Source of the DNA: Eunapius fragilis
Lineage: Eukaryota > Porifera > Demospongiae > Spongillida > Spongillidae
NCBI GenBank assembly: GCA_963681505.1
Contig: OY811992.1
Span: 5,342,724-5,406,723, forward strand
Direction of reading: 5' to 3'
DNA: 64,000 nucleotides
Shown piece after piece: positions 7,801 through 13,800 of this stretch (its first letter is position 1; each line of letters starts with the position of its first letter). The translations under genes and the position numbers were made by a program. Under the pieces are notes generated by a model. The model saw only the letters and a list, made by a program, of their open reading frames with translations. It was not told the origin of the DNA and did not search any database.

Positions 7801-10800
7801 TTACTTGTTTCATTGATTTTTATTCATACCCAATTATGAGCCGTATAGCATGTTAAGTAATCCATCTTGATATGAGAGGGAGGTTGTAAAGGTACGACAT
7901 ACCTTTGAGTGACCTTAACTGAGCGAGATGCACGTTCAGGACTATGGCAATATCGCTGTCTTTTTTCAGGATCTGCTCGATACCTTGCACGTCGAGAGGT
8001 CCGTTCCTTTTCAGGATCTGAGGGGGCTTTAAGGGGCAGCCGAAATAGAAGAGAGGTTATTAATTGTCGCCCCTGCGCGATCGAACCCACGAACGCATTT
8101 TGTATCGGGCCAGAAGCAGACAGCACCCTCTCCCCCTACTAATCGCATCTCGATACCTTGCGCGTCGAGAGATTCGTTTCTTTTCAGGCTCTGCTCGATA
8201 GTTTTCATGTTGAGAGCCCCGCTTCTTTTCAGGCTCTGCTTTGTAGTTCCGCTCGGGCTGAATCTAATATGTCGTCTCTAGTTTTGAGGTACTATGCTCG
8301 TCGTTTGGCTTTCTTTTCCTGACGTGAAGGCATATTGAAAAAAAAAAAACAACTTCACTAAGTTACAAAGAGCGTCAAACCTACAACGATCAAGAATGAC
8401 GCACGTGCACGTTATTAAAAATACATAACCGCCAAAGTTAATTACCACTACGTGTAGTGCCCGGACCGTACACATTTGATTACATGATGTATACTGCTAG
8501 TACTTCGTATAAAGAGCGACGTAGGACCTATCCGAGTCGTGTCAGTGCAGTAAGCTATACGTGATTTGCTAATACAACCACCGATATATGTCATGTAGCC
8601 TCGAGACGTTTTGACCACAGAAGCGAGAATGCCAACGAATTCTGAAGCCATTGGTGTGATTTTCATTTCTTAAAAGTGTTCCTATCCCGAGTTATGCGTG
8701 GTCAAGAAGAAGAAGAAGAAGAAGAAGAAGAAGAAAGAAGAAGAAGAAGAAGAAGAAGAAGAAGAAGAAGAAGAAGAAGAAGAAGAAGAAGAAGAAGAAG
8801 AAGAAGAAGAAGAAGAAGAAGAAGAAGAAGAAGAAGAAGAAGAAGAAGAAGAAGAAGAAGAAGAAGAAGAAGAAGAAGAAGAAGAAGAAGAAGAAGAAGA
8901 AGAAGAAGAAGAAGAAGAAGAAGAAGAAGAAGAAGAAGAAGAAGAAGAAGAAGAAGAAGAAGAAGAAGAAGAAGAAGAAGAAGAAGAAGAAGAAGAAGAA
9001 GAAGAAGAAGAAGAAGAAGAAGAAGAAGAAGAAGAAGAAGAAGAAGAAGAAGAAGAAGAAGAAGAAGAAGAAGAAGAAGAAGAAGAAGAAGAAGAAGAAG
9101 AAGAAGAAGAAGAAGAAGAAGAAGAAGAAGAAGAAGAAGAAGAAGAAGAAGAAGAAGAAGAAGAAGAAGAAGAAGAAGAAGAAGAAGAAGAAGAAGAAGA
9201 AGAAGAAGAAGAAGAAGAAGAAGAAGAAGAAGAAGAGAAAAGAAGAAGAAGAAGAAGAAGAAGAAGAAGAAGAAGAAGAAGAAGAAGAAGAAGAAGAAGA
9301 AGAAGAAGAAGAAGAAGAAGAAGAAGAAGAAGAAGAAGAAGAAGAAGAAGAAGAAGAAGAAGAAGAAGAAGAAGAAGAAGAAGAAGAAGAAGAAGAAGAA
9401 GAAGAAGAAGAAGAGAAGAAGAAGAAGAAGAAGAAGAAGAAGAAGAAGAAGAAGAAGAAGAAGAAGAAGAAGAAGAAGAAGAAGAAGAAGAAGAAGAAGA
9501 AGAGAAGAAGAAGAAGAAGAAGAAGAAGAAGAAGAAGAAGAAGAAGAAGAAGAAGAAGAAGAAGAAGAAGAAGAAGAAGAAGAAGAAGAAGAAGAGAAGA
9601 AGAAGAAGAAGAAGAAGAAGAAGAAGAAGAAGAAGAAGAAGAAGAAGAAGAAGAAGAAGAAGAAGAAGAAGAAGAAGAAGAAGAAGAAGAAGAAGAAGAA
9701 GAAGAAGAAGAAGAAGAAGAAGAAGAAGAAGAAGAAGAAGAAGAAGAAGAAGAAGAAGAAGAAGAGAAGAAGAAGAAGAAGAAGAAGAAGAAGAAGAAGA
9801 GAAGAAGAAGAAGAGAAGAAGAAGAAGAGAAGAAGAAGAAGAAGAAGAAGAAGAAGAAGAAGAGAAGAAGAAGAAGAAGAAGAAGAGAAGAAGAAGAAGA
9901 AGAAGAAGAAGAAGAAGAAGAAGAAGAAGAAGAAGAAGAAGAAGAAGAAGAAGAAGAAGAAGAAGAAGAAGAAGAAGAAGAAGAAGAAGAAGAGAAGAAG
10001 AAGAAGAAGAAGAAGAAGAAGAAGAAGAAGAAGAAGAAGAAGAAGAAGAAGAAGAAGAAGAAGAAGAAGAAGAAGAAGAAGAAGAAGAAGAAGAAGAAGA
10101 AGAAGAAGAAGAAGAAGAAGAAGAAGAAGAAGAAGAAGAAGAAGAAGAAGAAGAAGAAGAAGAAGAAGAAGAAGAAGAAGAAGAAGAAGAAGAAGAAGAA
10201 GAAGAAGAAGAAGAAGAAGAAGAAGAAGAAGAAGAAGAAGAAGAAGAAGAAGAAGAAGAAGAAGAAGAAGAAGAAGAAGAGAAGAAGAAGAAGAAGAAGA
10301 AGAAGAAGAAGAAGAAGAAGAAGAAGAAGAAGAAGAAGAAGAAGAAGAAGAAGAAGAAGAAGAAGAAGAAGAAGAAGAAGAAGAAGAAGAAGAAGAAGAA
10401 GAAGAAGAAGAAGAAGAAGAGAAGAAGAAGAAGAAGAAGAAGAAGAAGAGAAGAAGAAGAAGAAGAAGAAGAAGAAGAAGAAGAAGAAGAAGAAGAAGAA
10501 GAAGAAGAAGAAGAAGAAGAAGAAGAAGAGAAGAAGAAGAAGAAGAAGAAGAAGAAGAAGAAGAAGAAGAAGAAGAAGAAGAAGAAGAAGAAGAAGAAGA
10601 AGAAGAAGAAGAAGAAGAAGAAGAAAGAAGAAGAAAGAAGAAGAAGAAGAAGAAGAAGAAGAAGAAGAAGAGAAGAAGAAGAGAAGAAGAAGAAGAAGAA
10701 GAAGAAGAAGAAGAAGAAGAAGAAGAAGAAGAAGAAGAAGAAGAAGAAGAAGAAGAAGAAGAAGAAGAAGAAGAAGAAGAAGAAGAAGAAGAAGAAGAAG

Positions 10801-13800
10801 AAGAAGAAGAAGAAGAAGAAGAAGAAGAAGAAGAAGAAGAAGAAGAAGAAGAAGAAGAAGAAGAAGAAGAAGAAGAAGAAGAAGAAGAAGAAGAAGAAGA
10901 AGAAGAAGAAGAAGAAGAACATGGGACTGGGTACGAGTTTCGAAAATTGTTTTGTTCTCTACAACCATGCGGTTTTGTGACATCAAACAAACACGAAACT
11001 GCTTGTTGTTGCCTTCTTGTACGACGACGATAACAAGGTAAGTCATCCGCTCGTCGGGAGTCTTGTTAGAAGCGGGTCGCGTTTTTTTAATGACATTCAT
11101 AATCGGGGTCAAATCCTATATGACTCTCGACAAAGGGTCCTGGATAGGATATTCTATGGTTTTGAGCTAATATTTCATACCACACCATTGAATTTAAAGG
11201 CACACAAGCACATAACTTGCACGAGCTGATTTTGATACGACTTTGCAATTATTAAACTTCATTGTCCATCACCTTGCATAATATATAAAATTGTGGACCA
11301 CTGTTCATTAGCATTAAATAATACAGAGCTGCAAGTAATGTGTGAACACTGGTATTCAGATGAATGTATATAGACAATGTGCATAAATTGATTTGGTGTG
11401 TGTACATGTGAGTGTGTAAGTGCAAAATTGCTTTGTCTGATACTTGGTACATATATTGTTATTGCTTATTAATTGTAACAACAATCACCATGTAAATATA
11501 CAACAGCTGATCATTTGCATCAGTTGAAATGAATGAGAATTCCTTTTGGAATAACTAATATGCCATATCATTATAGCATGGGACTGGGGTGACCCTCACA
11601 TCACAACATTGGATGGAAAGACCTACACATTCAATGGATGGGGAGAGTACATACTGCTCCAGTACTCCCCATTGGACCATAGAACTACCTTCAGCCTGCA
11701 GGCACGAATGGTCCCTTGGAACAGGACATCTGCAACACAGTTTTCTGCCCTAGCATTTGGAAACAAATATAATGGATCAGTTGTCGAGGTATTCTAAATA
11801 GTACTTTCTAGTGTGGCAGCTCTTTTCCAATGCTTGCATAGTGGGATCATTAATACATTATTACCCCATCAATACAAGTCTTTGATGACTTCATCTGCAT
11901 TTTCATGTACCATCTGAATATGGAATTTTAGTTTTAGCAACATGTTACAGTTGTACTTTGTACACATATGCAATGTGCACTAGAACACAAAACTCTTATG
12001 GCCATGCTGCTGTAATAAAACACATGTGATGATGTGACCTTGCCCCTCTAAGACACATAACTGCAAAGTTGATTTATGAGAGTTACTTAATCACTAATAA
12101 CAATCATTGAATGAATACTATTTGCCTACATGTCTAGATAATTATTTGTAATTCCATTGCAGATTGGAGTTATCAGCAATAACCAATTCAATGCATATGT
12201 TGATGGAAAAAATATCAGCTTACTACTCCAAGGTCCTAATTCTGCATACAGTGATGAAAATGTAGAAATATTTAAGAATGAGGACAATTCTATTACATGT
12301 GCAATGCCTACTATTGGATTTGGTGTTACTGTTAGCAGCAAGGAAGGTGCCATGGGCTTTGTGCTACAGGTCCCTGCATCATGGCAAAGGTATACCACTG
12401 GACTTCTAGGCAACTACAATGGAAATAAGAGTGATGACTTCATACCAAGAGGAAGTAAAGTAGCAATATCGGATGGTGAAAGTGATAGAAATATTCATTT
12501 CAAATTTTGTCAGACATGTAAGTCTAAATAGCCTTAAATTTTAAACTAATTCATTCTTTCTCTCCCACTTTTTAGGGTCTACATCTCAGTCAGAGTCTAT
12601 TTTTTCCTACTACAGTAACACATCATGGAAATTCTATTCTCATCCAACTCACCTCCCTGTCTTTGCAGATGAAATAATTCCAACAGCTGCCCAAAAGTCA
12701 TTATGTGGCAATAATATTCAATGCATTTACGATTTATCACAAACAAACAGCACAAAATTTGCCATGGAAACTGCAAAGTTTGGAGACAACAACATCCAGA
12801 ATGCCAAGATAATCAGTACGTTTAAATACAACTAACTTCAAAAGATACACCATGTATGAACTGATTTAACCACAAAGATGCTCTTCTAAAAGAGTTCATA
12901 TTACTTTAAGTGGTCATTTACTGAATTTACGTACTTTTGGAGTGCACAATAAACTCCAAAGCTATTAGAACCAGATTAAAAGTTTGGTTTTATAACCTTC
13001 AAATATATACCATAAAATATAATACTAATGAATAGTTAAATAATTTGAATAATTAAAAGGCTTCAAGTTTTTAAAAATCAAATTTGTAAAAGTGAATGAG
13101 AAAAGTAAGTTAAAATTATTACAGCAATCCTTGTGAACAATGTTATAGAGAGGAAATTTTCTTTAACCACTGCTTTTCATAATGGGAGGTCAAAAACATA
13201 TAAGGTTCACTCTGACCCTAGCAGTGCATGAGGGCAGAGTCTCTTCATAGACTGTATCTATTTCTATGGTTATTGTACTTGGTAATTATGTTGTTATCAT
13301 TGTGTTTGTTGATTGTATATATAATGTATTATTGTAAAAAAAATATATATATATATATAAGGTTCACTGGAAATGTATCTTCTCCCATATTTTAAATAGT
13401 TATGAAGTAGGGCAAAGTAATGAATAAATGTACTACTTAATAAACAAAGCTTGCATTTACCAAACAGCTGTAATCAATAGCAACAGGACCCACTTTGTCT
13501 ACACTGTATTTGAAGTGATTTAAATGTTCCTACCTGATGATTTTAAACATTACAAAAAAATATGTAAAGTACCATATCGAGAAAACTTGGCAGTGATGGA
13601 AATCATGAATGCCGCTAAAGAGTTAATTCATATAGACAACTATATATTTACACACAACATATGCACATGTGTACATATACATACACAAGCACGTATACAC
13701 AGCGACACAAATGCACATACACCCACACATATAAGATATGTGCTGGACACTTAACAAGTCACTTCCTTGGAGATTAGAAATAATAAAATGCATTTCCCCC

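Follow-up and report, generated by a model that had tools for sequence, protein, structure and literature searches.

A 2.2-kb intronic GAA tract in the sponge Eunapius fragilis lies within a putative Helitron2-like transposon whose lineage carries GAA tracts at many loci

GAA expansions have been studied mainly at a few human loci. In the demosponge Eunapius fragilis, a tract of ~740 GAA units is located in an intron within a stretch of 64,000 nucleotides (assembly GCA_963681505.1, contig OY811992.1, positions 5,342,724 to 5,406,723 of the forward strand; hereafter, the window), raising the question of where such a tract comes from and how an animal comes to carry it between two coding parts of one gene. 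Analysis of this one assembly, at the level of sequence only, placed the tract inside a copy of a dispersed transposon, other copies of which contain a short triplet seed at the same position, and revealed recurrent expansion of this seed at other members of the transposon lineage. We consider it highly probable that insertion of the transposon, followed by in-place growth of its seed, accounts for the tract as a whole.

The tract (Table 1) is far beyond what chance would produce. Tandem Repeats Finder describes it as 743.7 copies of AAG with 98% matches and a score of 4279, and its bases are 1,474 A and 742 G, with neither C nor T and no GG dinucleotide. The 742 A-runs comprise 721 of AA, 17 of a single A, 3 of AAA, and 1 of AAAA; each of the 21 slips is a change in the length of an A-run, substitutions are absent, and the longest uninterrupted run spans 166 units. 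These values uphold the description, in an earlier note based on the sequence of the window, of a 2.2-kb tract with more than 700 GAA units and rare slips. The same note proposed that the slips may stabilize the tract; since all of them are insertions or deletions (indels) within A-runs, they need not be stabilizing and provide no evidence of stabilization, and they may reflect either slippage or uncorrected sequencing errors.

The sequences on both sides of the tract belong to an element of 1.47 kb that is dispersed through the genome. The 202 bp to the right of the tract are 99–100% identical to at least 39 scored places besides the window, and the 884 bp to the left align at 89–94% identity over at least 860 bases with at least 38 other places, both counts being lower bounds because each search scored the best 40 of ~2,000 candidates. 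The left-junction pattern (21 bases, up to 2 mismatches) has 850 matches in the genome versus 0 for the reversed control; at ~1.4 kb each, the 850 junctions would put this subfamily at some 0.5% of the genome. The ends of the window copy, the canonical 5' (TC) end at 11130 and the other at 7528, correspond to ends common to 28 full-length loci, and L013, L014, L016–L018, L023, L024, and L026–L028 are among the loci that align with L030 at 100% over ~1,465 bp, after which the alignment stops. Measured on the 1,465-bp slice, which includes two flanking bases, a 14-bp inverted repeat lies 25 bp from the end on the TC side and 39 bp from the opposite one; TCAAATCCTATATG is also found at 7756–7769, in the other arm of the palindrome that forms the end opposite the TC end. 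The earlier note had correctly reported this 281-bp palindrome in the same intron but had missed that it and the tract are parts of one transposon. As the 14-bp inverted repeat lies inside the palindrome, the palindrome fits the element's own end; related palindromes also occur alone, however, and it may instead be a separate element that was captured. The window copy has lost the terminal hairpin of intact copies and probably also its mobility. Within the window, scans with Rfam and for tRNAs returned no matches, nor did the left part of the element match a phage collection.

At the position of the tract, all 36 other loci of both flank searches, which were picked by similarity and not randomly, contain 31–52 bp (43 bp in 25 of the 36), lengths that run up to TGGGACTGGG and include 11 bp past the repeats. 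This seed consists of AAG and AAC triplets followed by CGAGAAATACG; in the window copy the AAC triplets are all gone and CGAGAAATA has been lost after the tract. At least two AAC triplets are present in 31 of the 36 unexpanded loci, and 0–1 AAC at the start in six of the eight expanded rows with the subfamily's GCGTGGTC flank (read by eye). Loss of AAC as a predictor of expansion is a lead only, both samples having been selected by similarity; such a loss of interruptions may have triggered growth. Coding of polyglutamate by the repeat was rejected: although frames cross the seed, no part of the 1,465-bp element stays free of stops for more than 138 codons, and the slips break any frame through the tract. 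A duplication of exon sequence, considered for the presence of CATGGGACTGGG at 10920 and at the exon start at 11577, was likewise rejected as coincidence because TGGGACTGGG follows the seed in the other copies.

The fixed position of the seed bears directly on whether the GAA tract could have come first, the transposon having inserted beside or into it. A lepidopteran Helitron-like superfamily is reported, in the title of a publication, to disrupt (GAAA)n microsatellites; here, however, the tract is bordered by element sequence to its left and right and sits at a single fixed place within the element, and the 36 colinear unexpanded loci and the autonomous relative described below all hold the seed. 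We give this order of events next to no chance.

The substitutions in the element provide an indication of when the seed grew. Relative to the majority sequence, the window copy has 27 substitutions at 1,159 sites on the left (28 copies), 14 of them private, and 10 at 212 sites on the right (36 copies), 7 of them private. The flanks thus total 37 substitutions (21 private) at 1,371 sites versus 0 at the 2,216 sites of the tract, in which 34 would be expected at the private rate. Because the flanks hold private substitutions and the tract none, the tract appears to have changed in place: either it grew well after the insertion or slippage keeps renewing it. Slippage or fork restart could be responsible for such growth. 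The alternative, that the tract grew during rolling-circle transposition, through a single-stranded intermediate, and was inserted already long, accords with the microsatellites and tandem repeats that Helitron-type elements are known to carry, according to passages of PMC4067079 and PMC7492417, but fits poorly with a tract that lacks substitutions between flanks with private ones. Furthermore, the near-identical, recently amplified copies (L013–L030) are all of the 43-bp form, a contrast with the window tract that is suggestive only, as these copies were ranked by similarity and long recent ones could be missed. Overall, growth during transposition seems unlikely.

To which transposons does the element belong? 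A search for the Helitron Rep family yielded 91 matches in the genome versus 0 in 14 control genomes, and three frames of 1,996 aa on contig C2 have the left-junction pattern at an identical offset of 2,977 bp (paired by eye among the junction matches listed, which cover C1, and C2 up to 6.56 Mb). At locus L084, an 840-bp stretch with a short seed is 88.7% identical to the element and terminates in the same hairpin. A frame of 1,984 aa follows 1.3 kb downstream and has Pfam matches to Helitron_like_N (PF14214; 3.5e-24), PIF1 (PF05970; 1.7e-22), and OTU (5.8e-7); no endonuclease family is among the 16 Pfam rows for this frame. Read in the direction of the Rep frame, the element begins with TC followed by a hairpin, with a 9-bp stem in common copies, as expected of a 5' TC end, and TTC is on the sense strand of this frame, GAA being on the + strand of the window. 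Target-site duplication at the element ends was considered and dropped, given that 27 of 29 insertions (window included) lack a direct repeat beyond the 10-bp maximum of 400 permuted pairs. The two exceptions, possibly local duplications, are L034, with an 18-bp repeat at a distance of 7 bp from the element end, and L020, with a 20-bp repeat at a distance of 37 bp. Outside the TC end, the first base (+ strand) is T in 28 of the 29 insertions and the second is A in 27; the other flank is T in 14. This pattern differs from the TT insertion of Helentrons. By the endonuclease and TT target tests, the element is not a Helentron. Since the seed and this terminal hairpin are also present in a Rep/helicase relative, the element is best regarded as a putative non-autonomous Helitron2-like transposon, an assignment based on termini and domains rather than on a Rep/helicase tree. 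At L084:7280–7320, the autonomous Helitron ends, as read by eye, against sequence resembling the palindrome arm of the non-autonomous element's other end, a resemblance that may point to a link between them at insertion or termination.

Expansion of the seed is not confined to the window. A search with the left flank plus 15 units, allowing up to 3 mismatches, found 17 places, of which 13 were fetched; lengths were obtained for 12 of these, the exception being L072, which the pattern used by the script did not recognize. The 12 tracts range from 45 bp to >930 bp, with three running off the stretch, and lie behind at least three left-flank forms; GGA repeats occur beside GAA in five of them (L069, L075, L076, L080, and L081). 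Most copies are unexpanded, with eight expansion rows carrying the subfamily's flank versus 850 junctions, although the mismatch limit misses some expansions, that of the window copy included. In L093, L095/L116, and L119, GAA tracts pass into GAC repeats.

For a sample that does not depend on the element, we used 11 perfect units followed by a non-G base, a pattern with 157 places counted and 100 listed; among those listed, the places on contigs C1–C3 were followed and clustered by eye into 32 tracts, with a further tract each from C4 and C5. Already-known members account for four of the 32 (L039, L073, L074, and L076), L039–L068 being overlapping views of one tract. For the other 28, only the downstream flank was fetched, with extension of seven, so element sequence might yet lie upstream of tracts assigned outside the lineage. 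The family is matched at E ≤ 1e-4 by 12 of these 28, compared with 0 of 1,100 dinucleotide-shuffled flanks. Four more are linked via the flanks of those 12 (L097 and L109 strongly; L091 and L106 via ~40 bp near the end plus a hairpin of the same form), and five of the seven extended flanks match the family (L115, L116, L118, L119, and L120; L118 mainly via L091 and L106). Altogether, 25 of the 31 resolved tracts on C1–C3 fall in the lineage, or 22 of 31 without the three tracts resting on the L091/L106 link, whereas six of 31 (L087/L114, L089, L092, L099, L100, and L107) have no family match in the downstream flank; one of the 32 (L096/L117) was left out of the resolved count. For an earlier count of 18 of 25, the binomial probability is 2.9e-8 even with the lineage at 20% of the genome. 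On these flank comparisons, the transposon lineage appears to be the source of most GAA tracts sampled on the three contigs. L099 and L100, with no match to the transposon flanks, are 97% alike, possibly one duplicated case, and in both the GAA run abuts coding-like sequence; the flank of L088 is partly N.

The subfamilies also have their terminal structure in common. Between CCTAYAT and GAT they differ in sequence, yet a paired hairpin is again present, with arms GAGAGTTAC/GTAACTCTC, GGAAGTCTC/GAGACTTCC, GGAACCTAC/GTAGGTTCC, AGGAACTAC/GTAGTTCCT, AGGACCTAC/GTAGGTCCT, and TGAACCTGC/GCAGGTTCA, which suggests that the hairpin is kept by structure rather than sequence. A script detected it in 10 of 22 flanks (L086, L088, L091, L093, L097, L104, L106, L109, L110, and L111) and in none of the five counted outside the lineage (L089, L092, L099, L100, and L107); nor was it detected in L095, the flank of which had not been reached at that point, or in L069, L076, and L081 as cut.

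The window tract does not seem to be unique in size. In the C5 copy, of the same subfamily, a distance of 1,994 bp separates the flanks of a GAA tract whose two ends are covered by L071 and L121, with ~1 kb of the interior unread. In the C4 copy, also of this subfamily, at least 2,086 bp separate the first listed place from the flank on the right; this tract is interrupted by C and T, and its left side is unread. Both tracts, each partly read, appear to be ~2 kb. Genome-wide, there are 7,046 42-unit and 6,874 43-unit perfect windows; the difference, 172, is the number of perfect runs, as distinct from tracts, with 42 units or more. These copies also bear on whether the tract has been inflated in assembly. 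Long GA-rich runs are hard for long-read platforms, and indels in A-runs, which all 21 slips are, would be in keeping with such an artefact; however, the slips are unevenly spaced along the tract and form a unique pattern, and the independent C5 and C4 copies, with their own flanks, seem to reach a similar size. An artefact is therefore a very slim prospect.

The gene itself was examined through its exons. GTAAGT directly after 5752 and ATAG directly before 11577 give an in-phase join across an intron of 5,824 bp, 3,603 bp of which are the element. The joined exons match the Pfam domains NIDO (E 1.2e-7) and VWD (E 3.5e-18), with no row for AMOP at an E limit of 10, although HMMER filters drop most matches above ~0.1. 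As a protein query against the same genome, they produced 28 matches, including 11 paralogue pairs in which both exons are found in the same order and strand, separated by 47–881 bp at the same point (approximate gaps, measured between aligned ends). Because these pairs hold a short gap where the window gene has 5,824 bp, the intronic status of the tract is supported independently of transcripts, in favor of one gene, not two, with an intron lengthened by insertion. The in-phase splice sites and intronic location proposed in the earlier note are thus borne out, and the animal does appear to tolerate such tracts, considering the 172 perfect runs and the C5 and C4 tracts. The proposed AMOP–VWD architecture is upheld for VWD and not for AMOP, and the characterization of the flanking exons as essential coding parts is unsupported for a gene with this many paralogues. 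At 5775–5834, starting 23 bases past the donor site, lies a hairpin whose 27-nt arms are 89% complementary and enclose a loop of 6 nt; it could affect splicing of the intron.

The host might tolerate the tract because it is spliced out of the transcript of one of many paralogues. Alternatively, the host could regulate the gene through the tract, by a triplex or heterochromatin brake of the kind known from FXN, the gene of Friedreich ataxia, or from Arabidopsis IIL1. The length range over which FXN is silenced covers the length of this tract, and the GAA of FXN is also on the coding strand. An intronic GAA/TTC expansion lowers the IIL1 transcript in a temperature-dependent manner, as described in passages of PMC5006647. 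Nevertheless, many other transposon copies hold such tracts and nothing singles out the window gene; silencing here would be an argument by analogy, and we regard regulation through the tract as quite unlikely.

Taken together, the observations suggest the following scenario. A non-autonomous Helitron2-like rolling-circle transposon would have inserted in the intron between the NIDO-side and VWD exons, bringing with it, as in the other copies read, a short seed of AAG and AAC triplets close to the TC end, at a position corresponding to a stretch upstream of the Rep/helicase frame in the autonomous relative. Following insertion, the seed would have lost its AAC interruptions and grown about fifty-fold, or kept being renewed, to ~740 GAA units, and the same growth would have occurred at other copies in several subfamilies. 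Several points weigh against this scenario. An old tract under continual renewal would likewise be free of substitutions, the private substitutions of the flanks may partly come from an unsampled source copy, and the A-run slips may be sequencing errors. The placement of the divergent subfamilies draws on flanks of ~130–400 bp, and the script did not detect the hairpin in six in-lineage flanks (L085, L090, L098, L103, L105, and L112). The preference for T-A is found at one end only and differs from the TT of Helentrons; the 2.8 kb retrieved on the far side of the autonomous element (L113) did not reveal its 3' end, and the similarity of the autonomous and non-autonomous elements is thus established for the TC end. 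A broader and more speculative proposal, which we put forward tentatively as less probable than its negation, is that the lineage seeds GAA expansions of the FXN class across the genome, with a fixed purine triplet seed retained upstream of the replication gene through several diverged subfamilies, hundreds of copies, and kilobase growth in place; in that case, either replication, transcription, and splicing through these tracts would rely on unusual capacities of the animal, or the seed itself would be of use to the transposon, for instance in promoter function or DNA unwinding.

Table 1. Coordinates of the tract, the transposon copy, and the host gene in the window
Feature	Position	Strand	Remarks
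Expanded GAA tract	8704..10919	+	2216 bp, 21 A-run slips, 0 substitutions; 31-52 bp at the same spot in 36 other loci
Putative non-autonomous Helitron2-like element copy	7528..11130	-	Ends common to copies elsewhere; 11130 end homologous to autonomous Rep/helicase element
Left junction of seed, TATCCCGAGTTATGCGTGGTC	8683..8703	+	850 genome matches at <=2 mismatches
Terminal palindrome (reported in the earlier note), element end opposite TC end	7528..7808	.	Related palindromes also found without the remainder of the element
14-bp CATATAGGATTTGA	7567..7580	+	Inverted partner of 11109-11122 (asymmetric / subterminal inverted repeat)
14-bp TCAAATCCTATATG	11109..11122	+	Inverted partner of 7567-7580
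Terminal hairpin remnant	11123..11130	+	Intact copies GAGAGTTAC-TAAC-GTAACTCTC-GA; window copy ACTCTCGA alone
Host intron	5753..11576	+	In-phase join; gap at same point in 11 paralogue pairs
Host exon, end of NIDO domain	4924..5435	+	Pfam PF06119
Host exon directly upstream of intron (AMOP in the earlier note)	5526..5752	+	Without Pfam support for AMOP
Host exon, first part of VWD domain	11577..11788	+	Pfam PF00094
Host exon, remainder of VWD domain	12163..12519	+	Pfam PF00094

Elsewhere in the window, a perfect TC dinucleotide run of 120 bp lies at 3291–3410. Reverse-transcriptase-like frames occupy the region 24965–31637 (RVT_1 at 24965–25594, E 6e-14, and at 30870–31637, E 0.002), and two almost identical frames without a Pfam match are found in inverted order at 28579–29076 (+) and 30071–30568 (-). 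A kinase frame (48268–49059; PK_Tyr_Ser-Thr, 1.7e-18) and a caspase-domain frame (53307–53768; Peptidase_C14, 3.9e-20) are, we presume, reminiscent of IRAK-like and paracaspase genes. Tandem arrays include a 23-bp array at 54853–55435 and a minisatellite at 57204–57506 with a 14-bp unit (21.7 copies, 99% matches).

Hundreds of copies with the same seed, either unexpanded or grown to kilobases and with flanks that can be dated, amount to a natural replicated experiment, in which the seed copies bear on the causes of expansion (purity, age, orientation, and transcription) and on animal life with FXN-sized tracts. A narrow literature search, confined to a single library and covering titles and abstract openings, returned no report of GAA expansion in Helitrons, and a rolling-circle transposon lineage as the chief source of long GAA tracts looks new as a combination, both halves of which are known. 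Among the known systems, the Helitron2 and Helentron types represented by FoHeli1/2 of Fusarium, as described in passages of PMC5148889, likewise have termini with TC immediately followed by a hairpin and an inverted repeat 38–51 bp from the far end, versus 39 bp here, and the scarcity of target duplications and the Rep and PIF1-like helicase of the autonomous relative are further likenesses to Helitron2 types. Unlike Helentrons, the element comes without an endonuclease family and has T-A at one end instead of TT or TTTT|T; unlike FoHeli, its far end is a palindrome of 281–291 bp. DINE/HINE elements with microsatellites and tandem repeats (passages of PMC4067079 and PMC7492417) and a microsatellite-bearing Helitron related to mini-me (passages of PMC3630058) offer a second parallel: as far as those passages go, DINE-1, HINE, and mini-me share with this element a non-coding nature, high copy number, subterminal inverted repeats, palindromes, and an internal microsatellite, but theirs is often GTCY-like, and those of oyster are short and eroding, whereas here GAA grows to kilobases.

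The closest counterparts of the tract itself are intronic. Arabidopsis Bur-0 IIL1 is likewise a natural intronic GAA/TTC expansion in a wild genome, but a single locus with a growth defect, and the passages of PMC5006647 that describe it do not mention a transposon origin. The FXN repeat arose from the middle A-rich part of an Alu, as stated in passages of PMC3378579, and passages of PMC13158230 give its AluSx position and describe GAA-GGA composites in expanded alleles, similar to the composite tracts found in this genome (L069, L075, L076, L080, and L081). As in FXN, an intronic GAA expansion lies inside a mobile element, with GAA on the coding strand of the intron, and the idea of a mobile element as the source of a dangerous repeat is thereby extended from Alu to rolling-circle transposons. 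In contrast to FXN, the transposon class and the animal are different, and the expansion recurs at many copies of one lineage, between which tract length differs widely in the assembly.

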